Shown piece after piece: positions 1,658 to 21,509 of a stretch of 36,044 nucleotides of DNA. The DNA is from Meiothermus luteus (GTDB lineage Bacteria > Deinococcota > Deinococci > Deinococcales > Thermaceae). The notes beneath the pieces are model-generated. The model searched no databases, was not told where the DNA came from, and worked only from the letters and a program-made list of their open reading frames with translations. The translations under genes were made by a program, and so were the position numbers. Position 1 is the first letter of the stretch. Each line of letters opens with the position of its first letter. Where the stretch lies: the NCBI RefSeq assembly GCF_003574085.1, contig NZ_QWKZ01000019.1, positions 1-36,044 on the forward strand. The letters run 5' to 3'.

Positions 1658-2971
1658 ATGACCTTTGACCCCACTGAGCTCGAGCTGCGTCAGGACCCGC
1701 TGGCCTTCTTCCTGCACCTCTCTCGCACCAGCCCCAACATCACCACCTTCCGCTTCGCCTCCGGTAGGGAGATCGTCCTGCTCAACCACCCCGACTTGAT
1801 CCGCGAGGTGCTGGTTGAGCGGGCCGATGAGTTCCACAAGTCCGACCTGACCCGGGCCTTTGCTGGGGGAATGGGCAACGGAATCCTGGTCTCGGAAGGG
1901 GAGTTCTGGAAGCAGCAGGTGCGCATCATGCGGCCGGCCTTCCACTACAAGCGCCTGCAGGGCTACGCCGAGGTGATGCGGCGGTTCGCCCTGGAGATGC
2001 TCGCCCACTGGCAAAACGGCGAGATTAGGCATCTCGAGGAGGATATGAACGCCCTCACCCTGCGGGTGGTGGCCAAGTGCATGTTTGATGTGGAGGCGGG
2101 GGAGGACCGGGAGATCATGCACCGAGCCATCATGCTAGGGCAGAAGGTGGTGGGTCAGATGGTCTACGGCTGGCTCAACCTACCGGACTGGCACCCGGGC
2201 CTAAACCGCGACGGCATCCGGGTGGTGCGGGCCCTAAACGAGATGGTGAGCCGCCACATCGCCTATCGCCGGGCCCGGGGCGACCTGGGGGACGACCTCC
2301 TCTCCATGCTCTTGGAAGCACAGCAGCAGCCCGGCGTGCAGCTCTCCGACCGGCAGGTGCGCGACGAGGTGCTCACGGTCATCACGGCCGGCCTCGAGAC
2401 CACCGCCAACGCGCTGGTCTGGACCTGGTACCTGCTTGACCGGCACCCCGAGGTGCGGGAGCGGCTCGAGGCCGAGGTGGACGCCTTGGAGGGCCCCCCG
2501 GGCTTTGAGGAGGTGCAGCGCCTGCCCTACCTGGACCAGGTCTTCAAGGAGAGCCTGCGGCTGTACCCGCCGGTCTGGATTATTGGCCGGGAGAACGTGC
2601 GCGAGCTGGAGCTGGGAGGAATGCGGCTGCCCCCTAGGACCCAGATTGTGATGTGCCAGTGGGCCACCCACCGCGACCCCCGCTTCTATGAGCAGCCCGA
2701 TGCCTTTATTCCCGAGCGCTGGACGCCGGAGTTTGAGCGGTCCTTGCCTAAAGGGGCCTACTTCCCCTTCAGCCTGGGCCCGCGGGTCTGCACCGGCCAG
2801 GGGTTTGCCACCATTGAGTACAAGATCATCGTGGCCACGGTGCTCCAGCGCTTCCGGCTCGAGCTGGCCCGGCCCGCCCCGGTGCGCCCCGAGCCCAACT
2901 TTACCCTCTGCGCCCACGGCGGGCTGCCCATGCGGGTCAAGGCCCGCCGGGCCCTACTGCCCCTGGACTGA
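1658..2971 (+). CDS. Cytochrome P450, CYP175-like candidate
   Basis: A 437-residue soluble cytochrome P450 with every class signature in order: the I-helix oxygen-activation motif AGLETT (residues 244-249), the K-helix ExxR (E298, R301), PERW (352-355) and the haem-binding loop FSLGPRVCTG with axial Cys378. There is no membrane anchor and no fused reductase, so a separate ferredoxin system is needed, and none is encoded nearby. In Thermus the comparable enzyme, CYP175A1, hydroxylates beta-carotene. A carotenoid substrate here is an inference from lineage and from the prenyl synthase at 11191, not from residues I can identify. The last 35 bp overlap the convergent folC gene. A leaderless start at 1658 fits the -10 box 7 nt upstream. 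Confidence 0.93.
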   Translation: MTFDPTELELRQDPLAFFLHLSRTSPNITTFRFASGREIVLLNHPDLIREVLVERADEFHKSDLTRAFAGGMGNGILVSEGEFWKQQVRIMRPAFHYKRLQGYAEVMRRFALEMLAHWQNGEIRHLEEDMNALTLRVVAKCMFDVEAGEDREIMHRAIMLGQKVVGQMVYGWLNLPDWHPGLNRDGIRVVRALNEMVSRHIAYRRARGDLGDDLLSMLLEAQQQPGVQLSDRQVRDEVLTVITAGLETTANALVWTWYLLDRHPEVRERLEAEVDALEGPPGFEEVQRLPYLDQVFKESLRLYPPVWIIGRENVRELELGGMRLPPRTQIVMCQWATHRDPRFYEQPDAFIPERWTPEFERSLPKGAYFPFSLGPRVCTGQGFATIEYKIIVATVLQRFRLELARPAPVRPEPNFTLCAHGGLPMRVKARRALLPLD

Positions 2972-4157
2972 TTTTCACTACCACCGCTTGGGCGGCCAGC
3001 TGCTTGAGCACCTCCCCCACCAGGTACAAAGAGCCGGTGACCAGAACCGTCGCCTCCTCCTTTCGGGCCGCCTCCACCGCGTCCTCCACCGCGGCCAGCG
3101 GCAGGTCAAAGTACGGGGCGGGAAAAAGCCCTTGGAGGGCCTGGGCCTGTAGGGCCCCCTGCCCGGCGCGGGTGTAGCGCAGGCTTAGGGCTTTGGGGAG
3201 GAGGGTTTGCAGGATGGTGGGGTAGTCCTTGCGGGGGAAGGCCCCAAAGACCAGGTGGAACCTTTCAAACTCCTCCGCTAGGGCCCGGGCGGCGGGGGGG
3301 TTGTGGGCCCCGTCCAGCACCACCGGCACCCCCTGGTAGCGTAGAAGCTGCATCCGTCCCGGGTGGTGGGCGGTGGACAGGCCTGCCGAGACCACCCCCT
3401 CGCCGTACCCCAGCAGCCGCAGGGCTGCCGCCGCCAGCCGGGCGTTCTGCCGCTGGAAGCGCCCTTGCAGGGAGGGTTCGGTGGGCAGGGCGAAGAGGGG
3501 GTTTCCCTCCGTCAGCACGTGCAAGGGCGCACCCTGTTCGGCGGCCACCGCCCGGATGACCTCCAGGCCCACCCCCTCGGCCCCGGTTACCACCGGCACA
3601 CCGGGGCGGATGGCCCCGGCCTTGTCCTGGGCCACGCCCAACAGCGAACCACCGAGGGTCTCCAGGTGGTCCTCCCCGATGTTGGTGATGATGGTGACCT
3701 CTACCCGGGGCAGCACGTTGGTCGCGTCCAGCGCCCCGCCGACCCCCGCCTCCACTGCGGCGATGCGCACCCCTAGGGAGGAGAAGTGCTGGAAGGCCAG
3801 GGCGGTGGTGAGGTCAAAAAAGGCCACCGGCTCCCGGAAGCGCTGCGAGCGGGCCCAGCGCACAAAGGCGCACACCTCGGCCTCCTCAATGGGCCCCAGG
3901 TGGGTACGGATGCGCTCGCGAAAGTCCACCAGGTGAGGGCTGGTGGTCGCCCCAAAGGCCTCCCTCGCGGTCCTGAAGGCCGCCTCGAGGTAGGCCACCA
4001 CACTGCCCTTGCCGTTGGTACCTACCACGTGCACCGCCGAGAAAGCCCTCTCGGGGTGGTCTAGGCGCTCCATTAGTTCCTGGATTCGGGAAAGCCCCCG
4101 CGGTGCGCCCCCGCGGGTCTGGGAAAAAAGCCACTCTACAGCCTCGGGATAGGTCAC
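2937..4157 (-). CDS. folC: Folylpolyglutamate synthase / dihydrofolate synthase
   Basis: A 406-residue Mur-ligase-family enzyme that adds glutamate to folates, and probably also to dihydropteroate, in the cytoplasm using ATP. The P-loop GTNGKGS is at residues 46-52. The family motifs TNIGEDH (central ATPase domain) and LDGAHNP (start of the C-terminal ligase domain) are present. Translation probably starts at a GTG 7 nt after a TAGACT -10 box, with no Shine-Dalgarno. The final 15 or so residues (Val, Pro and Gly rich) run into the antisense end of the P450 gene and look like a non-conserved tail. It lies 24 nt after a VWA-protein gene on the same strand, but the promoter between them suggests independent expression. 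Confidence 0.93.
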   Translation of the reverse strand: MTYPEAVEWLFSQTRGGAPRGLSRIQELMERLDHPERAFSAVHVVGTNGKGSVVAYLEAAFRTAREAFGATTSPHLVDFRERIRTHLGPIEEAEVCAFVRWARSQRFREPVAFFDLTTALAFQHFSSLGVRIAAVEAGVGGALDATNVLPRVEVTIITNIGEDHLETLGGSLLGVAQDKAGAIRPGVPVVTGAEGVGLEVIRAVAAEQGAPLHVLTEGNPLFALPTEPSLQGRFQRQNARLAAAALRLLGYGEGVVSAGLSTAHHPGRMQLLRYQGVPVVLDGAHNPPAARALAEEFERFHLVFGAFPRKDYPTILQTLLPKALSLRYTRAGQGALQAQALQGLFPAPYFDLPLAAVEDAVEAARKEEATVLVTGSLYLVGEVLKQLAAQAVVVKISPGAVGPGGP

Positions 4158-9254: not shown

Positions 9255-9935
9255 CTAGCGGAAGTTTCGGTCCACCAGGGCAAGACCGCCTTGCTCGGCG
9301 AAATTCATGGAGGTGAAGACCTCCCCCACCCCGGGGAAGAACCAGACCTCAAAGTTTTCCCGCAGGCTGGGGTTTCTGGGGTCGCGGTACTCCACCCCGA
9401 TGCGGTAGACCTCAAAGTTGCCCGCCGGCACGCTCACGTTGGACCTGCCCAGCACCGTGTAGCTGTACTCCAGCAGCCGGTCGCTAACCCGGGTGGTTTG
9501 GTTGTTCAACCGCAGCTCAATGACCTCCCGGGTCTGGCCGCCCCAGCGGGCCCCTACGGCGAAGCTGGCCTCGGGGGGGTACTCCTGGATGGGGGGGGTG
9601 TAGCGGGCCACCTGGATTTTGTCGTAGTCCTCAATGCCCAAAAGCCGCACCCCCCCGGCGTCCACCTGGCGGTAGTAAGAGCGCTCGAGCCCCCGCCCGC
9701 TCAGGCGGTAGCGGATCGCCGGCTGGCCCTCAAAGCTGGCCGGGCCGATGACCGAGAGGCGCAGGGGGGGGTCGCTGGTGGAGGCCCGCAGGGGCAGGTA
9801 AATCCAGTCCAGGCCTGGCTGGGAGGGGTAGAAGCCCACCGGTCCTTGGATGATCGCAGTGTTGAGGGGAGGGCTGCTGCTGCGTGGGGCGCAGGAGACG
9901 AGCAGCAGTAGAAAGGCTATGAGCAGGCGTGGCAT
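9255..9935 (-). CDS. Predicted lipoprotein of unknown function
   Basis: A 226-residue protein with a lipoprotein signal peptide: a short basic start, a run of Leu, and the lipobox LVSC with the lipidated cysteine at residue 15. The remaining 210 or so residues look like a soluble beta-rich domain with no motif I recognise. Translation starts at ATG 9935, 7 nt after a TAAACT -10 box, so it may have its own leaderless transcript even though it follows the 162-residue membrane-anchored protein by only 10 nt. Its place between pspA and dxs suggests an envelope role, but this is inference only. Confidence 0.8.
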
Positions 9936-9945
9936 CACCCCAAGT

Positions 9946-10434
9946 TTACCCTTGGTGGATGGAGGGCGGGTGCAGGGCCTCCCGCAAGGCGATGAGGTGT
10001 TGGGGTAGATCGGCCAGGGCGGGGGGCTCGCCCTTCCCCTCAACCAGGGCCAGCTCGGCTCCGAGCCGCTCAATGTAGGCGATGCCCTGGTCTAGGGTTG
10101 TGTCCAGGCTGGTGTAGCGGGCGGAAACCTCGGTGCGGGTGTGGTAGTCCAGGCCTGGGGTGGTGCAAAGACGTTCGAGCTCGGTGAGCTTGGGAAAGAG
10201 TTTGTACAGGTTACGCCCGTACGCCCGCACCTGCTGGAGGGGTTCGCGCAGGTGGGGGTGCCTGCGGCTTTGGCGGCGAAGTTCGGCTAAAGCCCGGCCT
10301 AGACGCTCGTGCTGTTGTCGCAAGGGCAGTGAGAGCGGACGGCTGGCGTTAATGGCCCAGACCACGAACCCCACCAACCCCAGCAGCAAAAGCATCTCGA
10401 GCAAGGCGATTCCCATCTGCTTGAGTGCCTCCAT
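9946..10434 (-). CDS. Membrane-anchored protein of unknown function
   Basis: A 162-residue protein with a single N-terminal membrane segment (about residues 8-28, Leu-rich, flanked by Met and Asn) followed by a highly charged, probably helical cytoplasmic or extracytoplasmic domain with many Arg, Leu and Glu residues. No known motif is seen. The gene begins 15 nt after pspA ends and stops 10 nt before the lipoprotein start, so it likely belongs to a pspA operon. A membrane-stress partner of PspA is an attractive but unproven idea. Only a weak AGGG ribosome-binding sequence precedes the ATG. Confidence 0.72.
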   Translation of the reverse strand: MEALKQMGIALLEMLLLLGLVGFVVWAINASRPLSLPLRQQHERLGRALAELRRQSRRHPHLREPLQQVRAYGRNLYKLFPKLTELERLCTTPGLDYHTRTEVSARYTSLDTTLDQGIAYIERLGAELALVEGKGEPPALADLPQHLIALREALHPPSIHQG

Positions 10435-15154: not shown

Positions 15155-16575
15155 AGTTCTACCCCCAGCATCTCGCCCAGCATCCGTTTGACCACATCGG
15201 CCTTGGCGGTGCCCCGGGTGGCCTTCATGATGGGCCCCACCAGGGCGTTGGCGGCCTTGAGGTTGCCCGCCCGCACCTGTTCCACCACCTTCGGGTTCTC
15301 GGCCACCACCCGTTCTACCAAGGGCCGCAGGGCCCCCTCATCGGCCACCGCGCGCAGGCCCCGTTCCTCCACCAGCCGCAGCGGGTCGGCGCCCGCCATC
15401 ACCTCGGGCAGGATGTCGGCCACCACCCGGTTGGTAATCTCCCGGCGCTCAAAAAGCCCCGCCAGCCGGGAGAGGTTCAAGGGGGTAAGGGCAGTTTGCT
15501 GAATCTCCAGGCCCCGCTCGTTCAGATACCCCGCCACTTCGGCGTTGAGCAGGTTGGCCAGGGTCTGGGGGTGGCCTTCGTACTGGGCCAGCGCCTGGTC
15601 AAAGAAGCGGGCCAGCGAGGCGTTGTAGGCCAGAATCTCGGCGTCGTAAGGGCGCACCCCCGCCTCCACGTAGCGGGCGTGTTTCTGAGCAGGCAGCTCC
15701 GGCATGGCCGCTTTGAGCCGGTTTAGCCAAGCCTCGTCCACCACGATGGGGGGCAGGTCGGGGTCGGGGAAGTAGCGGTAGTCGGCCTCCTCTTCCTTGA
15801 GGCGCATCACGTAGGTCTTTCCCGCCGCCTCGTCCCAACCCAAGGTGGCCTGGGCCACCGTCCGGCCGCTGCGAAGGATCTCCTGTTGGCGCTTGATCTC
15901 GTACTCGAGCGCCCGGGCCACGCTCTTGAAGGAGTTGAGGTTCTTTATCTCTACCTTGGTCCCCAAAGGCTCCCCCATCCGCCGTACCGAAACGTTTACG
16001 TCGGCCCGCATCTTGCCCTCCTCAGGGTTGGCGTCGGAGACCCCCAGCGTTTGGGCAATGGCCCGGATATGGGCGAGGAAGGTGCGGGCCTGTTCAGGGC
16101 TGTGGATGTCCGGCTCGGTGACCATCTCAATAAGGGGCGCGCCGGCCCGGTTGAGGTCTATTAGGGAGTAGGAGGCCCCCTCGGGGTGGGTGGACTTGGC
16201 CGCGTCCTCCTCTAGGTGGATGCGGCGGATGCGCACCCGCTGGCCCTCCACCTCCAAGTAACCCCCGGTGGCGATGGGCAGGTCGTACTGGGAGATTTGG
16301 TAGTTTTTGGGCATGTCTGGGTAGTAGTAGCTTTTGCGGTGAAACTGGGTCCATGGGGCGATCTGGCAGTGCAGGGCCAGCCCCAGGAGGATGCCGTACT
16401 CTACGGCCTGGGCGTTTACCACCGGCAGCACCCCCGGCAGACCCAAGCAGACCGGGCAGGTGTGGGTGTTGGGTAGAGCGCCGAAATAGTCGGCCGCGCA
16501 GCCGCAGAACATCTTGCTTTGAGTCTTGAGGTGCAGGTGAATCTCCAGCCCCACCACGGCTTCAAAAGCAGACAT
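15151..16575 (-). CDS. gatB: Aspartyl/glutamyl-tRNA(Asn/Gln) amidotransferase subunit B
   Basis: A 474-residue kinase and tRNA-binding subunit of the GatCAB amidotransferase, which converts Asp-tRNA(Asn) and/or Glu-tRNA(Gln) to the amidated forms. The N-terminal GLEIHLHLKT is characteristic. A four-cysteine zinc site (Cys24, 26, 40 and 43) precedes the conserved LGLPG. The C-terminal part is the helical YqeY-like tail domain that contacts tRNA. gatA and gatC are not in the window. The ATG at 16575 lies 9 nt after a perfect TATAAT on the minus strand. It is the first gene of a gatB-purM-phosphatase run. Confidence 0.97.
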
Positions 16576-16584
16576 ACCCCGAAC

Positions 16585-16590
16585 ATTATA
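16585..16590 (-). promoter_or_regulatory. Putative -10 box for gatB-purM
   Basis: On the minus strand a consensus TATAAT lies 9 nt before the gatB ATG. There is no Shine-Dalgarno, so the mRNA would be leaderless or nearly so. The 52-bp divergent region also holds TAGAGT (16616-16621) for the plus-strand gene. No good -35 is visible for either. Confidence 0.6.
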
Positions 16591-16615
16591 GGCGGGGCCT
16601 TTCCCGGGTAGAGGG

Positions 16616-16621
16616 TAGAGT
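16616..16621 (+). promoter_or_regulatory. Putative -10 box for the adenosyltransferase gene
   Basis: TAGAGT precedes the ATG at 16628 by 6 nt. This is the same leaderless geometry as at other genes in the window. Confidence 0.4.
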
Positions 16622-16627
16622 AAGGGT

Positions 16628-17191
16628 ATGAAGATTTACACCAAGACCGGTGACAAGGGGGAGACCGGACTATACGGGGCTGAGCGAGTGGGCAAGGAGC
16701 ACCCCCGGGTGGAGGCCTACGGCACCGTGGACGAGGCCAACAGCGCGATTGGCCTGGCCCGGGCCCTGCTGCCCGCGGCCCACAAGGATATTCACGCGGA
16801 CCTGGAGTACCTTCAAAACGCCCTTTTTGACCTGGGGGCCGACCTGGCTACCCGTATGGGGATCCCCTACGAGCGTAACCTGAGCCGGATTGAGGAGGCG
16901 GACGTGGAGCGGCTCGAGGCCCTCATAGACCGCTACCAGGAGGAGGCCCCGCAGTTTAGAGGCTTCATTCACCCGGGGGGGCACCCTGCGGCCGCGGCTT
17001 TGCACCTGGCCCGCGCCATCGTCCGCCGGGCCGAGCGGCGGGTGGTGGGGCTTATGCGCCATGAGGCGGTCAACCCAGAGGTGCTGCGCTACTTAAACCG
17101 GCTTTCTGACCTGCTTTTTACCCTGGCCCGGGTGCTCAACCAGCGGGAGGGCTTCGCCGAGGAAGGGTGGTTGGTGAAGGGGCGCCGCTAA
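16628..17191 (+). CDS. Cob(I)alamin adenosyltransferase, PduO type
   Basis: A 187-residue ATP:cob(I)alamin adenosyltransferase that makes adenosylcobalamin in the cytoplasm. The N-terminal signature TKTGDKGETGLYGAERVGK is the ATP-binding motif. AYGTVDEANSAIG and the RRAERRV segment near residue 140 are further PduO-family hallmarks, and the all-helical, trimer-forming size fits. The gene is divergent from gatB and lies 32 nt before the large peptidase/barrel gene. No other cobalamin genes are adjacent, apart from the CobC-like phosphatase that may or may not be related. Confidence 0.96.
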   Translation: MKIYTKTGDKGETGLYGAERVGKEHPRVEAYGTVDEANSAIGLARALLPAAHKDIHADLEYLQNALFDLGADLATRMGIPYERNLSRIEEADVERLEALIDRYQEEAPQFRGFIHPGGHPAAAALHLARAIVRRAERRVVGLMRHEAVNPEVLRYLNRLSDLLFTLARVLNQREGFAEEGWLVKGRR

Positions 17192-17211
17192 GCTTGGGAA
17201 GCGGCTTTGCC

Positions 17212-17217
17212 TATACT
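17212..17217 (+). promoter_or_regulatory. Putative -10 box for the peptidase/barrel gene
   Basis: TATACT ends 6 nt before the ATG at 17224, just past the adenosyltransferase stop. No Shine-Dalgarno precedes that ATG, which supports a leaderless start there. Confidence 0.5.
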
Positions 17218-17223
17218 GGGCCC

Positions 17224-19920
17224 ATGGCCCGCCTTTTGCCGCTTTTTTTGTGGCTCGCCTTGCTGGGCTGGGCCCAGTTTGACCCCACCCGGTCCTGGTT
17301 TACCCTGCGCACGGAGCACTTTGACGTCCACTACCACCCCGGGCTCGAGCGGGTGGCCGCCGAGGTCGCTCTCTACGCCGAGGAGGCCTACGCCCTCTTG
17401 AGCCAGGATTTTGAGCCTCCTCCCGGCCGGCTGAGCCTGGTGGTCGCTGATGTGGGGGATGTACTCAACGGGTTTGCCGACCCTACCCAGAACCGGGTGG
17501 GCATCTACACCACCCAGTTCCGTAGCGCCGACCTCTTCAACCCTCGGCTTTCCTCTTGGTGGCAGACCGTGGTCTTCCACGAGGTGACCCACCTTTTCGA
17601 CCTGACCCAGGTGCGGGGGCCCCTAAGAGAGGCCACCCGCATCTTTGGCCAGCTCCCGGCCCAAAGCGCTGTAAAACCCTTCCCGTTGGTGGAGGGGGCG
17701 GTGCTTTACCTCAAGTACAAGAAGCTGGGGGAGTCGCGCCTCAACGACGCCACCACCCGCATGATGCTGCGGCAGATGGTCCTCTCGGGCCACTTTCCCA
17801 GCTTAGATGAGGTTCGCCAGGCCTATACCAGAGCCACCTGGCCACCCTTGGGCCTTTTGGTCTACAACTACGGTGCTTGGCTGGTGCGGTACCTCGAGGA
17901 GCGCTTCGGGGAGGACGCCTACCGCCGCCTCACCGAGGCCAACGCGGGGATGCTAGCCTTCAAGGACTTCAACCAGCCCTTCCAGCAGGCTTTCGGCCTG
18001 TCCTTGGATGAGCTGTACGCTGAATTCGTGCGCTGGCTGCCCAACCAGTTTGAGGGGGAAATCGCCCGGATTCGCGCCCAGGGCCTTACCCCAACGGAGC
18101 GGCTAACCCACCTGGGGTTCTACAGCCAGGGGGCAACGGCCTCGGCCAGCGGTTTGGTCTATGCGCACGCCTCGCCCTTGCGCCAGGGGCTGCGCATCCT
18201 TGCAGGGGGGGAGGAGCGAGAGCTTCTGAGTGGGCCGGCCCAGCACCCCCAGTGGTCCCCGGATGGCCGTTACCTGATCTTTGTGCGCAGCCAGCGCGAG
18301 GGGCCCTACTTTGTGGGCAGCGACCTCTACCGCTACGACCGGCTGGAGGGGCGGCTCGAGCGGCTTACCCGCGGGGAGCGGGTCTACTATGCCCGCTACG
18401 CCCCCGACGGGCAAAGCGTCTTCCTGGCCAAGAACACCCCCGACGGCTCCACCGAGCTGGCCCGCTACTTTGTGGACCTAAAGCGGCTGCAACCCTTGCG
18501 CAGCTTCCCCCATCAAGACGGGGTGGTGCACTCTTTTGCGGTGGCCCCGGATGGGGGCTCGCTGGTGCTGGCCCTGTTGCGGCGGGGCGGGTTCCAGGAC
18601 CTCTACCGCTACACCCTGGCGAGCGGTGCGCTGGAAGCCCTTACCCAGGACAAGAACGTGGACAGCGACCCAGTCTTCAGCCCGGATGGGCGGTACGTGC
18701 TCTACAGCAGCGATGCGGATCGGGTCTACAACCTTTACGCCTACCGCCTGAGCGATGGGGCGGTCTTTCAGGTGACCAACCTGCTCACCGGAGCCTATCA
18801 GCCCACCTTCTCCCACGCGGGAGACCACATCGTTTTCACCGGCTACGACACAGGGGGTTACAACCTCTACCAGGTGTCCTACAACCCCGCCGCCTGGCGG
18901 CGGGTGGGGCTTCGGCGGGAGGCGCTCCCGGCCTTTCGGCCGCTCGAGCCGGCCCGCGGGGAGCCCTACGACCCCTTTCCCTACCTGCGCCCCCTTTACT
19001 GGCTGCCCCTGGTGGGGCCGAGCGGCCTGGGGCTGGGGGCCTCCTTTTCCGCTTCCGACCCGGTGGGGCTGCACGCCTACACCCTAAGCATGGGCCTGGA
19101 TGGCCTGCAGGGGGCCTTCTACGACCTGGCCTACCGGTTTACGGGGCTGGGCTTCCCGCTGGGGCTGCGCTTGGCAGGGTTGGGCGGGCAGAACGCCCAG
19201 GGGGTGGGGGCGTTTTTCCCCCTCGCGCAGGGCAGCCTGGGCCTCCAGTACCTGCGCACCGACCTCTTTGAGCCTGCCCTGAACCTCAACCAGAACACCG
19301 TGACCCACGCTGTTGCCCTGGATGTGTTCGGGCAGAGCAGCCAAGCGGAGGACCTCTTCCGCAGCAGCAGTCATTTGCGCCTCCAGGGGACCGCCTTTCT
19401 CAGGGAGGGCAGCCCTACCTGGCGCTTTGGCCTGCGGGGGGCTTTGGGGGTGAGCCTGAGGCTGCCCCTGGAGGCCTCCCACGTCTTCGCGCTGCGGCTG
19501 GCCGGCGGTCTGACCACCTCGCCCCTAGCCTACGATGCCTTTGACCTGGGGGCGCCGCCCTTGGCGGTGGGGGGGTGGCCGGTGCTCGCGGTGCGGGGTT
19601 ATGGGCCGGGCCAGCTTAGGGGGGCCCAGGCCCTGGCGGGTTCGCTGGAGTATCGCCTGCCCCCCTGGCCCATTGAGCGGGGGCTGGGCAACTGGCCGGT
19701 TTTTTTGGACGACCTGGGCCTCACCTTGTTTGCCGATGGGGGGGTGGCGGGGTCGCCGCTCGAGCTCTCCCAAGCCCGCTTTTCCCTGGGGGCCGAGCTG
19801 CGCCTTGGCCTCACCCTTTTCTACCTTGCGCCGGGCTCGAGCCTGGCCTTGGGGGGCGCCCAAGGGATTGGGGAGCCGGGACCCCGGTTCTACCTCAACC
19901 TGGTGCTGCCCGGACCCTAG
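17224..19920 (+). CDS. Secreted metallopeptidase-beta-propeller-Omp85 barrel fusion
   Basis: An 898-residue outer-membrane protein with four parts. (1) A signal peptide, residues 1-17. (2) A peptidase-MA-like gluzincin domain, about 20-300, with zinc motif HEVTH (His119, Glu120, His123) and the third-ligand candidate Glu157 in PLVEGAVLY. (3) A TolB/PD40-type beta-propeller, about 330-600, with at least five blades marked by repeats such as WSPDGRYL, APDGQSV and FSPDGRYV. (4) A C-terminal beta-barrel, about 615-898, carrying the Omp85/TpsB signature VRGY at 790-793, followed by a typical LEYRLP strand. No POTRA domain is seen. The ATG at 17224 was chosen over an upstream GTG because it begins the signal peptide and follows a -10 box. 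It precedes an acyltransferase by 22 nt. The fusion is intact and its active site looks complete; substrate and topology are unknown. Confidence 0.87.
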   Translation: MARLLPLFLWLALLGWAQFDPTRSWFTLRTEHFDVHYHPGLERVAAEVALYAEEAYALLSQDFEPPPGRLSLVVADVGDVLNGFADPTQNRVGIYTTQFRSADLFNPRLSSWWQTVVFHEVTHLFDLTQVRGPLREATRIFGQLPAQSAVKPFPLVEGAVLYLKYKKLGESRLNDATTRMMLRQMVLSGHFPSLDEVRQAYTRATWPPLGLLVYNYGAWLVRYLEERFGEDAYRRLTEANAGMLAFKDFNQPFQQAFGLSLDELYAEFVRWLPNQFEGEIARIRAQGLTPTERLTHLGFYSQGATASASGLVYAHASPLRQGLRILAGGEERELLSGPAQHPQWSPDGRYLIFVRSQREGPYFVGSDLYRYDRLEGRLERLTRGERVYYARYAPDGQSVFLAKNTPDGSTELARYFVDLKRLQPLRSFPHQDGVVHSFAVAPDGGSLVLALLRRGGFQDLYRYTLASGALEALTQDKNVDSDPVFSPDGRYVLYSSDADRVYNLYAYRLSDGAVFQVTNLLTGAYQPTFSHAGDHIVFTGYDTGGYNLYQVSYNPAAWRRVGLRREALPAFRPLEPARGEPYDPFPYLRPLYWLPLVGPSGLGLGASFSASDPVGLHAYTLSMGLDGLQGAFYDLAYRFTGLGFPLGLRLAGLGGQNAQGVGAFFPLAQGSLGLQYLRTDLFEPALNLNQNTVTHAVALDVFGQSSQAEDLFRSSSHLRLQGTAFLREGSPTWRFGLRGALGVSLRLPLEASHVFALRLAGGLTTSPLAYDAFDLGAPPLAVGGWPVLAVRGYGPGQLRGAQALAGSLEYRLPPWPIERGLGNWPVFLDDLGLTLFADGGVAGSPLELSQARFSLGAELRLGLTLFYLAPGSSLALGGAQGIGEPGPRFYLNLVLPGP

Positions 19921-19942
19921 GCGGCTGTGGTATACCTAGGGA

Positions 19943-20554
19943 ATGCCCCACGCCCCACAACCCCGCACCCTCCGGCAGCGCCTGGGGGTCTGGGCCCTGC
20001 AGATGCTAGGTTGGACCCCTGTGATGGCCCCACCTCCTGGGAAGAAGTTCGTTTTGGTGGGCTACCCCCATACCTCCAACTGGGACTTTCTCTACGCCCT
20101 CCTGTGGGGCCTGGCCTCGGGGACACACTTTCGCTGGGTGGGCAAAAAGGAGCTCTTCCCTCCGGTCCTGGGGGCGCTGATGCGGGGGCTTGGGGGAATA
20201 CCGGTGGACCGGCAGCGCGCCGGGGGGGCCTTCGTACAGCAGGTGGCCCAGCTTTTCCAGCGCTCCGAGGAGCTTTGGCTGGTAGTGGCGGCCGAGGGCA
20301 CCCGCAGCCAGGCCCCTCACTGGAGAACCGGCTTTTACTACATGGCCCTAGAGGCCGGGGTCCCCATCGCCTTAGCCTACCTGGACCGCACCAGAAAGGA
20401 GGTGGGCGTGGGGGGGTACCTGGTGCCAAGCGGCGACCTGGAAGCCGACTTTCAGCGGATTGCGGCCTTTTACCAGGACAAGGTGGGCCTAAAACCCCAA
20501 AGGCAGAGCCCCATCCGGCTCAAACCGAAGGGGCGGCCTGGGGATGACGGGTAG
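19943..20554 (+). CDS. PlsC-type 1-acyl-glycerophosphate acyltransferase-like protein
   Basis: A 203-residue member of the lysophospholipid acyltransferase superfamily. The catalytic HxxxxD is HTSNWD (His43, Asp48), the acceptor-binding motif is EGTR (118-121), and the intermediate GGIPVDR block (84-90) is also conserved. There is no clear transmembrane anchor. This compact form resembles acyltransferases that act on non-standard acceptors, so phosphatidic acid synthesis is possible but not certain. The ATG follows TATACC by 6 nt. The 3' end overlaps the convergent galE gene by 35 bp. Confidence 0.85.
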   Translation: MPHAPQPRTLRQRLGVWALQMLGWTPVMAPPPGKKFVLVGYPHTSNWDFLYALLWGLASGTHFRWVGKKELFPPVLGALMRGLGGIPVDRQRAGGAFVQQVAQLFQRSEELWLVVAAEGTRSQAPHWRTGFYYMALEAGVPIALAYLDRTRKEVGVGGYLVPSGDLEADFQRIAAFYQDKVGLKPQRQSPIRLKPKGRPGDDG

Positions 20555-21509
20555 CGAAGTTCCAGGCGGTGGCCACGATCTCCGAGATGTCCTGGTAGCG
20601 GGCCTCCCACCCCAGAACCTCCCGGGCCCGGCTGGGGTCGGCTACCAGCGCCGGGGGGTCGCCTGGGCGGCGGGGGGCTTTTTCCGCAGGGACCGGACGC
20701 CCGGCCACCTTCTCCACTGCCTGGACGACCTCCAGCACACTGGTTCCCCGGCCGGTGCCTAGGTTTAGCGCCATGGAGCTCCCGCCCTGGAGCAGGTGCT
20801 GCAGGGCCCGCACGTGGGCCTCGGCCAGGTCGGTGACGTGGATGTAGTCGCGGATGGCGGTGCCGTCGGGGGTGGGGTAGTCGGTGCCGAAGATGCGGAC
20901 CGGGGGGCGCCGGCCCAGCGCGGCGTCAATGACCAGGGGGATGAGGTGGGTCTCGGGGTCGTGTACCTCGCCCAGCTCCCCTTCCGGGTCAGCCCCGCTG
21001 GCGTTGAAGTAGCGCAGGGCCATCCAGCCCAGGCCGTAGGCGCCTCCGAACCACTTGAGCATCTTCTCGCCCACCAGCTTGGTCTCCCCATAAGGGTTGA
21101 TGGGGTTTTGGGGGAAGTCCTCGCGGATGGGCACCGATTGCGGAATCCCGTAGGTGGCGCAGGAGGAGGAAAAGACGATGTGGCGGACCCCGGTTTCCAC
21201 CAGGGCCTCGAGCAGGTTGAGCATGTTGGCCACGTTGTTGCGGAAGTATTTGGCCGGGTTTTCCATGGACTCGCCCACGTAGGCGTTGGCGGCGAAGTGG
21301 ATGACCGCCCCGATGCGGTGGCCCTGCAGGGCTTCCAAAATGGCGGCCTTGTCGGCCAGGTCGGCCTCTACCAAAGGGCCCCACCGCACCGCCCAGCGGT
21401 GGCCGTAGCTTAGGTTGTCAAAGACTACAGGGGTAAATCCGGCTCGGTGTAGGGCCTTCGCGGTATGGCTGCCGATGTAGCCGGCACCTCCAACGACCAG
21501 TACGTTCAT
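20520..21509 (-). CDS. galE: UDP-glucose 4-epimerase family enzyme
   Basis: A 329-residue extended short-chain dehydrogenase/reductase with the NAD-binding GGAGYIGSH (7-15), a Ser-rich FSSSCATYG stretch near 113-121 and the catalytic YxxxK (Tyr140, Lys144). It interconverts C4 epimers of UDP-sugars. It is the last gene of ugd-uxs-galE, 11 nt after uxs, with GCGAGG upstream of the ATG. Because the operon makes UDP-xylose, the epimerase may act on UDP-xylose to give UDP-arabinose, as well as on UDP-glucose. Near the C terminus PALVAD replaces E. coli PAYWAD, so the Tyr that restricts substrate size there is Leu. Exact substrate is inferred. Confidence 0.92.
   Translation of the reverse strand: MNVLVVGGAGYIGSHTAKALHRAGFTPVVFDNLSYGHRWAVRWGPLVEADLADKAAILEALQGHRIGAVIHFAANAYVGESMENPAKYFRNNVANMLNLLEALVETGVRHIVFSSSCATYGIPQSVPIREDFPQNPINPYGETKLVGEKMLKWFGGAYGLGWMALRYFNASGADPEGELGEVHDPETHLIPLVIDAALGRRPPVRIFGTDYPTPDGTAIRDYIHVTDLAEAHVRALQHLLQGGSSMALNLGTGRGTSVLEVVQAVEKVAGRPVPAEKAPRRPGDPPALVADPSRAREVLGWEARYQDISEIVATAWNFATRHPQAAPSV

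Follow-up and report, generated by a model that had tools for sequence, protein, structure and literature searches.

The stretch of DNA analyzed here (36,044 nucleotides from the heat-loving bacterium Meiothermus luteus, referred to as the window; genome size 2.87 Mb) encodes at 17224-19920 of the forward strand a protein of 898 residues which combines, in a single uninterrupted frame, a signal peptide, a gluzincin-like zinc peptidase domain, a TolB-like beta-propeller and a C-terminal Omp85-type barrel. This order of domains had been proposed by the original prediction from the letters of the DNA, and the translation as well as the structural models allow it to be assigned with high confidence. 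The soluble domains are quite likely located in the periplasm, and on balance we lean towards an outer membrane-anchored periplasmic metallopeptidase, a reading in which both the placement and the enzymatic nature have to hold; a function in quality control is tentative. The three-domain architecture is real and recurs in three bacterial groups.

Domain Architecture and Conservation

Residues 19-290 are predicted to adopt a gluzincin (clan MA) fold, although the scores are modest. Gluzincins combine an HExxH motif with a downstream glutamate, and both are found in the protein, HEVTH at residues 119-123 and Glu157, at the places that the original prediction had given for them, as it had for VRGY at 790-793. 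The protein was modeled with AlphaFold2 from the 25 sequences of alignment A3 (predicted local distance difference test, pLDDT, 86.9; predicted template modeling score, pTM, 0.85); residues 19-290 appear mostly helical, with HEVTH in helix 112-127 and E157 in helix 153-168. Because the comparison of the whole model with VIA covered mainly the propeller, the peptidase domain was also modeled separately (pLDDT 80.4, pTM 0.83). The top Foldseek matches of this model were the M9 collagenase G (E 2.7e-5, template modeling score ~0.49), M1 aminopeptidases and M61, with the TFIID-complex entries 7edx and 6mzc interspersed among them, while VIA retrieved the M30 lugdulysin (Z 14.8) and M1 aminopeptidase N (Z 14.0), values near the Z ~14 that mostly helical models may score without a clear relative. 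The assignment of the fold therefore relies on the motif and on the top matches being of one kind, not on Z alone. Recognition came through structure because sequence searches were weak: Pfam at E<=1 did not detect the peptidase domain in the 898-residue protein, Peptidase_MA_2 was reached by 7 of the 21 rows of alignment A5 (best E 0.001) and by one of the 25 A3 rows (E 0.21), and a PDB sequence search with the profile of the domain gave one match only (E 1.8), to an unrelated-looking protein.

The candidate catalytic residues are well conserved. H119, E120, H123 and E157, together with R791 and G792 of the barrel, are invariant in the 20 rows of alignment A1 (42-88% identity), and H119, E120, H123, E157 and G158 in all 21 selected rows of A5, which represent three phyla and leave out L022, L050, L052 and the second copies at L042 and L044. 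This supports the earlier view of a potentially active protease, which would bind zinc at HEVTH with Glu157 as the presumed third ligand. L022 (421-3435, a homologue in genome G025) was omitted since it reads out of frame inside the barrel part, by a frameshift or a sequencing error. Among the 22 A3 rows that cover the peptidase domain HExxH is kept in 18; the remaining four are Bipolaricaulota paralogues (Table 1), possible pseudo-proteases to judge from their degenerate motif. Two of these, the additional copies of L042 and L044, also have a shorter barrel; they are found two genes away from the main copy, on the far side of a gene of subtilase type.

The propeller is the part of the protein visible to Pfam, in which PD40 (E 3.3e-12) and DPPIV_N were the sole domains detected; of the profiles named by the original prediction (Peptidase_MA, PD40 and Omp85), PD40 was thus found but the peptidase and the barrel were missed. 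PF00149, which bears the Pfam name Metallophos and is a phosphoesterase family, had no match in the protein either (Pfam, E<=1). TolB was retrieved by the PDB sequence search (E 5.4e-13), and TolB structures were the best VIA match of the whole model (Z ~23, over residues 308-557). The propeller shares its fold with TolB; unlike TolB, the protein carries a peptidase domain ahead of it and scores below the cut-off of the NCBIfam TolB equivalog model (E 9.3e-24; 84.1 bits versus 343.15), a cut-off exceeded by no protein of the window genome.

In the model, the barrel (592-894) has 16 strands, or 17 including a short strand at 815-820, in agreement with the 16-stranded fold on which the original prediction had staked itself beforehand. 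VIA aligned residues 589-895 to BamA of Deinococcus radiodurans (8xnb; Z 19.7, root-mean-square deviation 4.2, 287 aligned residues, 17% identity), followed by BAM/BamA entries of E. coli, Porphyromonas and Fusobacterium (Z 17.5-18.0). Loop 6 of Omp85 barrels carries the motif (V/I)RG(F/Y) between strands 11 and 12, and VRGY occupies this position in the model. When a 12-row barrel profile was aligned by hhalign to the BamA of the same genome, a probability of 92.6 was obtained (E 4.5e-7, 31% identity) over the last 124 columns only, which correspond to about the last third of the barrel and include the RGY loop. Since 60 shuffled versions of the BamA barrel attained at most 1.7% (score 23.1 versus 58-59; the reversed sequence, 0.4%), this match is more than chance, and by profile comparison homology to BamA is shown for the last third of the barrel.

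With the single sequence, Pfam PF01103 (Omp85) missed the barrel at E<=1 and also at E<=10; one of the 25 A3 rows reached it (E 0.014), and one of the 21 A5 rows reached the NCBI Deinococcus BamA model (E 4.8e-5). No POTRA match was obtained in the protein (Pfam, E<=1), and the reading of a gluzincin domain and a propeller joined to an Omp85 barrel with no POTRA proved right. The window genome has one Pfam-visible Omp85, the BamA gene at C149, which is also the only place where POTRA was found. Each of 13 further genomes, 12 of them carrying the family, likewise has one Omp85 above the cut-off, elsewhere than the family gene. The 898-residue protein is therefore an additional Omp85-type barrel and not the BamA.

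The loop 6 RG pair is present in all 12 A5 rows from Meiothermus, a second genus (g2), Bipolaricaulota and the phylum of genome G211 (Bacillota UBA10085, a Bacillota-like phylum), and missing in all nine rows from other Deinococcota (L021, of a genus in the same family, and L023-L030), which keep the catalytic site. The later barrel part of these nine sequences is not recognisable as Omp85 in A5. In A3, RG occurs in 19 of 25 rows; it is missing in L049, L050, L052 and the two short copies, and L047 ends before it. A profile of the loop-less barrels gave 0.3% against the Meiothermus BamA, compared with 92.6% for the Meiothermus-type profile; the start of the loop-less C-terminal domain aligns with the Meiothermus-type barrel profile with a probability of 97.9%, over 67 columns only. 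Because the catalytic site stays where the Omp85 loop is missing, sequence conservation would point to proteolysis as the function maintained in the family, with the barrel as its anchor.

Relation to Known Omp85 Proteins and Envelope Proteases

Searches of an open-licence PMC library retrieved no paper on the gluzincin-propeller-Omp85 architecture. Propeller-Omp85 proteins as such have been known since 2014, when a WD40 (propeller)-Omp85 subfamily was catalogued and read as BamA fused to a BamB/TolB-like propeller; early-branching phyla, e.g., Deinococcus-Thermus, were described as often having one BamA and no other Omp85 member (Heinz and Lithgow, 2014; PMC4104836). As in this subfamily, a TolB-like propeller replaces POTRA ahead of the barrel of the M. 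luteus protein; unlike it, a gluzincin domain is present, no peptidase being mentioned in the passages of PMC4104836 that describe the subfamily, and it is the combination of gluzincin and propeller-Omp85 that, by comparison with those passages, is new. Contrary to the picture drawn there for Deinococcus-Thermus, Meiothermus has this barrel beside a BamA. The same source lists a "Metallo" subfamily, called a metalloprotease-Omp85 fusion with the domain given as PF00149 (PMC4104836), from which the M. luteus protein differs by lacking a match to that domain. Since Pfam names PF00149 Metallophos, genuine metallopeptidase-Omp85 fusions may fall outside the subfamily as it is presented there.

A functional model is provided by PlpD, which consists of a patatin-like lipase domain, one POTRA and an Omp85 barrel and is described as a dimer; surface delivery of its enzyme domain had been proposed earlier, and the domain was found to remain periplasmic (PMC11116518). 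According to the same account, every Omp85 protein studied before PlpD assembles or moves proteins, and the subfamilies with an enzyme domain have seen little characterisation (PMC11116518). PlpD shares with the M. luteus protein an enzyme domain N-terminal to the barrel and illustrates how a periplasmic, barrel-anchored enzyme may work; here, unlike in PlpD, the barrel is preceded by a gluzincin domain and a propeller with no POTRA. A comparison limited to mode of action can be made with BepA, reported as a separate M48 protein which acts at BAM in outer membrane quality control (PMC13067283), and with related M48 proteases, as zinc metallopeptidases at the outer membrane. In contrast to BepA, the predicted peptidase forms one chain with a barrel of its own, and by its model it is similar to families M1, M9, M30 and M61.

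Distribution and Family History

Within its own phylum, the protein has matches in 41 of 111 genomes (E<=1e-5). The family is present in all 18 listed Meiothermus genomes, with one match per genome, and in both listed genomes of g2, with further matches in more distant Deinococcota; genus g4, which belongs to the same family as Meiothermus, has no match at E<=1e-5 in its 20 listed genomes. The loci L031-L040 (61-88% identity) comprise nine from Meiothermus and one from Thermaceae. Full-length relatives outside Deinococcota occur in Bipolaricaulota, where 31 of 100 genomes match at E<=1e-10, some through the propeller alone, and in the Bacillota-like phylum of G211, with 14 of 199 genomes at E<=1e-15. 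Several copies may occur in one Bipolaricaulota genome: G172 has matches in six separate places and G159 has seven, two of which are neighbouring pieces. Listing the genomes that carry the architecture, a check put forward with the original prediction, thus led to Deinococcota, Bipolaricaulota and the G211 phylum, and the caution that relatives might exist in other phyla was justified, the WD40-Omp85 proteins catalogued in 2014 included.

A quick tree of the peptidase and propeller domains (33 rows) grouped Meiothermus and g2 with Bipolaricaulota (Shimodaira-Hasegawa-like approximate likelihood ratio test, SH-aLRT, 100), apart from the other Deinococcota. A single clade of all 20 Deinococcota rows was rejected (approximately unbiased test, p 6.9e-6); Bipolaricaulota as one clade was not (p 0.159). 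As the Meiothermus copies are nearer to those of Bipolaricaulota than to those of other Deinococcota, the domains compared (17224-18909 versus L041-L044) likely reflect gene transfer between phyla, in either direction.

Gene Start, Feature Coordinates and Gene Neighbourhood

The frame is opened by GTG 17167, and ATG 17224 is favoured as the start because the relatives and an upstream TATACT box support it. The box at 17212-17217 is the sole instance in the window of TATACT 4-9 nucleotides ahead of a start codon, and in nine of the ten relatives L031-L040 (all but L037) it precedes ATG by 5-8 nucleotides; its sequence and position are those of a putative leaderless-type promoter. A sigma-70 scan of 16550-20700 returned zero sites. 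The residues of the signal peptide have pLDDT <50 in the model, and A17 and Q18 are nearly invariant in A1.

Table 1. Positions of the features described in the text, in the window or in the locus named.
Feature	Position	Strand	Basis
Whole gene, 898 residues plus stop	17224..19920	+	Translation, relatives
TATACT, -10-like box 6 nucleotides before ATG, putative leaderless-type start	17212..17217	+	Conserved in relatives
Sec-type signal peptide, ~residues 1-18	17224..17277	+	By eye from sequence
Predicted gluzincin-fold peptidase domain, residues 19-290	17278..18093	+	Domain model mc8f2d62d7400, structural matches
HEVTH, putative zinc-binding/catalytic motif, residues 119-123	17578..17592	+	HExxH conservation
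Glu157, presumed third zinc ligand, in LVEG	17692..17694	+	Conservation; helix 153-168 of the model
TolB-like beta-propeller, residues ~291-562	18094..18909	+	Pfam PD40, PDB TolB, VIA
C-terminal Omp85-type barrel, residues 589-895, ~16 strands	18988..19908	+	Model, VIA, hhalign
VRGY, Omp85 loop 6 motif, residues 790-793	19591..19602	+	In the 765-801 loop, strands 11-12
Bipolaricaulota paralogues with degenerate HExxH	L050:819-3584, L052:4872-7664, L042:10042-12057, L044:9274-11376		
Outer membrane-like upstream genes of Bipolaricaulota, mutually related	L042:3900-4931, L043:3759-4787, L044:3195-4151, L047:2457-3479, L052:3459-4748		

Several other readings of the gene were disfavoured. A fusion or assembly artefact was rejected, as the full-length frame occurs with no stops in 17 other genomes of the genus. 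An operon with the upstream cobalamin adenosyltransferase gene was thought unlikely because the gap of 32 nucleotides carries the TATACT box, which is kept in relatives with other upstream genes. Plasmid origin was also rejected: a protein search of PLSDB gave one match, to the propeller only, and the seven records found with the DNA of 16628-20554 all matched inside the adenosyltransferase gene.

In the window, the gene lies between this adenosyltransferase gene and a downstream acyltransferase gene. In Meiothermus, a gene for an HtrA-type protease stands directly upstream in 13 of the 17 genomes that can be assessed (L033, cut by a contig end, is not among them); it was called by Pfam in L032, by clustering with L032 in L035-L038 and L040, and by eye in L034, L003, L005, L006, L009, L011 and L012. 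The adenosyltransferase gene takes this place in three genomes (the window, L031 and L008) and a solute-binding-like gene, called by eye, in L039. A cluster for an ATP-binding cassette (ABC) solute-binding protein is found in the flank, non-adjacent, in 4 of the 10 loci L031-L040, called by Pfam for L034 only. In the two g2 genomes the upstream position is taken by an amidase-like gene (by eye). In five Bipolaricaulota loci the gene directly upstream encodes a secreted, outer membrane-like protein (by eye; Table 1), which had no Pfam match in the two copies scanned. Elsewhere in the window, amid mostly housekeeping genes, frames of 406 and 272 residues on the reverse strand (2937-4157 and 9255-10073) have no Pfam match at E<=1e-10.

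Proposed Role and Alternative Explanations

In Omp85 proteins the part ahead of the barrel is periplasmic, and for this reason, as well as by the precedent of PlpD, the peptidase domain and the propeller are placed in the periplasm. The protein would be exported by Sec, after which the BAM machine would insert the C-terminal barrel, leaving the gluzincin domain and the propeller hanging below it on the periplasmic side, tethered to the outer membrane. Propellers select or feed substrate in other proteases, and this one would probably do the same. The HExxH+Glu site would then cleave its protein or peptide substrates along the inner face of the outer membrane, most likely envelope proteins that were misassembled or are spent. 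For the role, the best reading is the processing of envelope proteins or their quality control; quality control, already guessed by the original prediction, fits the periplasmic placement and the frequent adjacency to HtrA, and yet is somewhat short of an even chance as the actual job.

Several observations weigh against this proposal. HtrA is not adjacent in the window genome, where the orthologue (88%) is on another contig, C112, nor in three further assessable Meiothermus genomes, and its adjacency, being gene order shared within one genus, is weak functional evidence. The job of the protein is dispensable in genus g4, since all 20 listed genomes lack the gene. The multiple copies and partly degenerate active sites of Bipolaricaulota fit substrate-specific roles equally well, and the strongest rival builds on them: the barrel would admit or export peptides, the propeller would gate it and the gluzincin domain would trim the peptides in the periplasm. 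Such a channel for peptide uptake or processing agrees with the several copies per Bipolaricaulota genome, among which the paralogues with a degenerate protease could serve as receptors, with the subtilase gene near three loci and the outer membrane-like partner in five, and with the solute-binding genes in four of ten flanks and next to L039. It is nonetheless unlikely, given that the 18 Meiothermus genomes have a single match each and that the commonest adjacent gene there codes for HtrA and not for a transporter; to our knowledge, no Omp85 barrel studied to date is a nutrient channel.

Two further explanations are quite improbable, to a similar degree. A surface protease could be delivered through its own barrel in a type V-like manner, as the original prediction had also considered; barrel and soluble enzyme do share one chain, and surface delivery of this kind was the initial proposal for PlpD (PMC11116518). 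This guess has fared worse than that of quality control: by analogy the pre-barrel domains would be periplasmic, as the PlpD enzyme domain is reported to be (PMC11116518), two folded domains of ~270 residues each precede the barrel, and nine relatives that lack the Omp85 loop keep the catalytic site. The protein could instead be an accessory insertase, in which BamA is fused to a BamB/TolB-like propeller and the peptidase is a helper. The RG of loop 6, kept in the 12 A5 rows mentioned above, speaks for this, whereas its loss in the nine other Deinococcota rows, in L049, L050, L052 and in the two short A3 paralogues, and the failure to find POTRA (Pfam, E<=1), speak against it.

Implications for the Envelope of Diderm Bacteria

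A wider scenario can be drawn from this reading, doubtful as it is: a family of self-anchored outer membrane proteases would extend across Deinococcota, Bipolaricaulota and the Bacillota-like phylum. Its history would have begun with the capture of an Omp85 barrel of BamA stock as the anchor of a propeller-fed gluzincin; in most other Deinococcota the hallmark loop would later have been lost and the protease kept. Such a family would represent an outer membrane quality control device of diderms outside Gracilicutes. For Meiothermus, the finding means a second Omp85-type barrel, invisible to Pfam, in a phylum whose members, by an earlier account, often have no Omp85 protein but BamA (PMC4104836). 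The family adds an enzyme-bearing Omp85 with a conserved candidate catalytic site, and its relatives with and without the Omp85 loop provide a natural experiment, by which it can be asked directly whether the barrel works as a machine or as an anchor.

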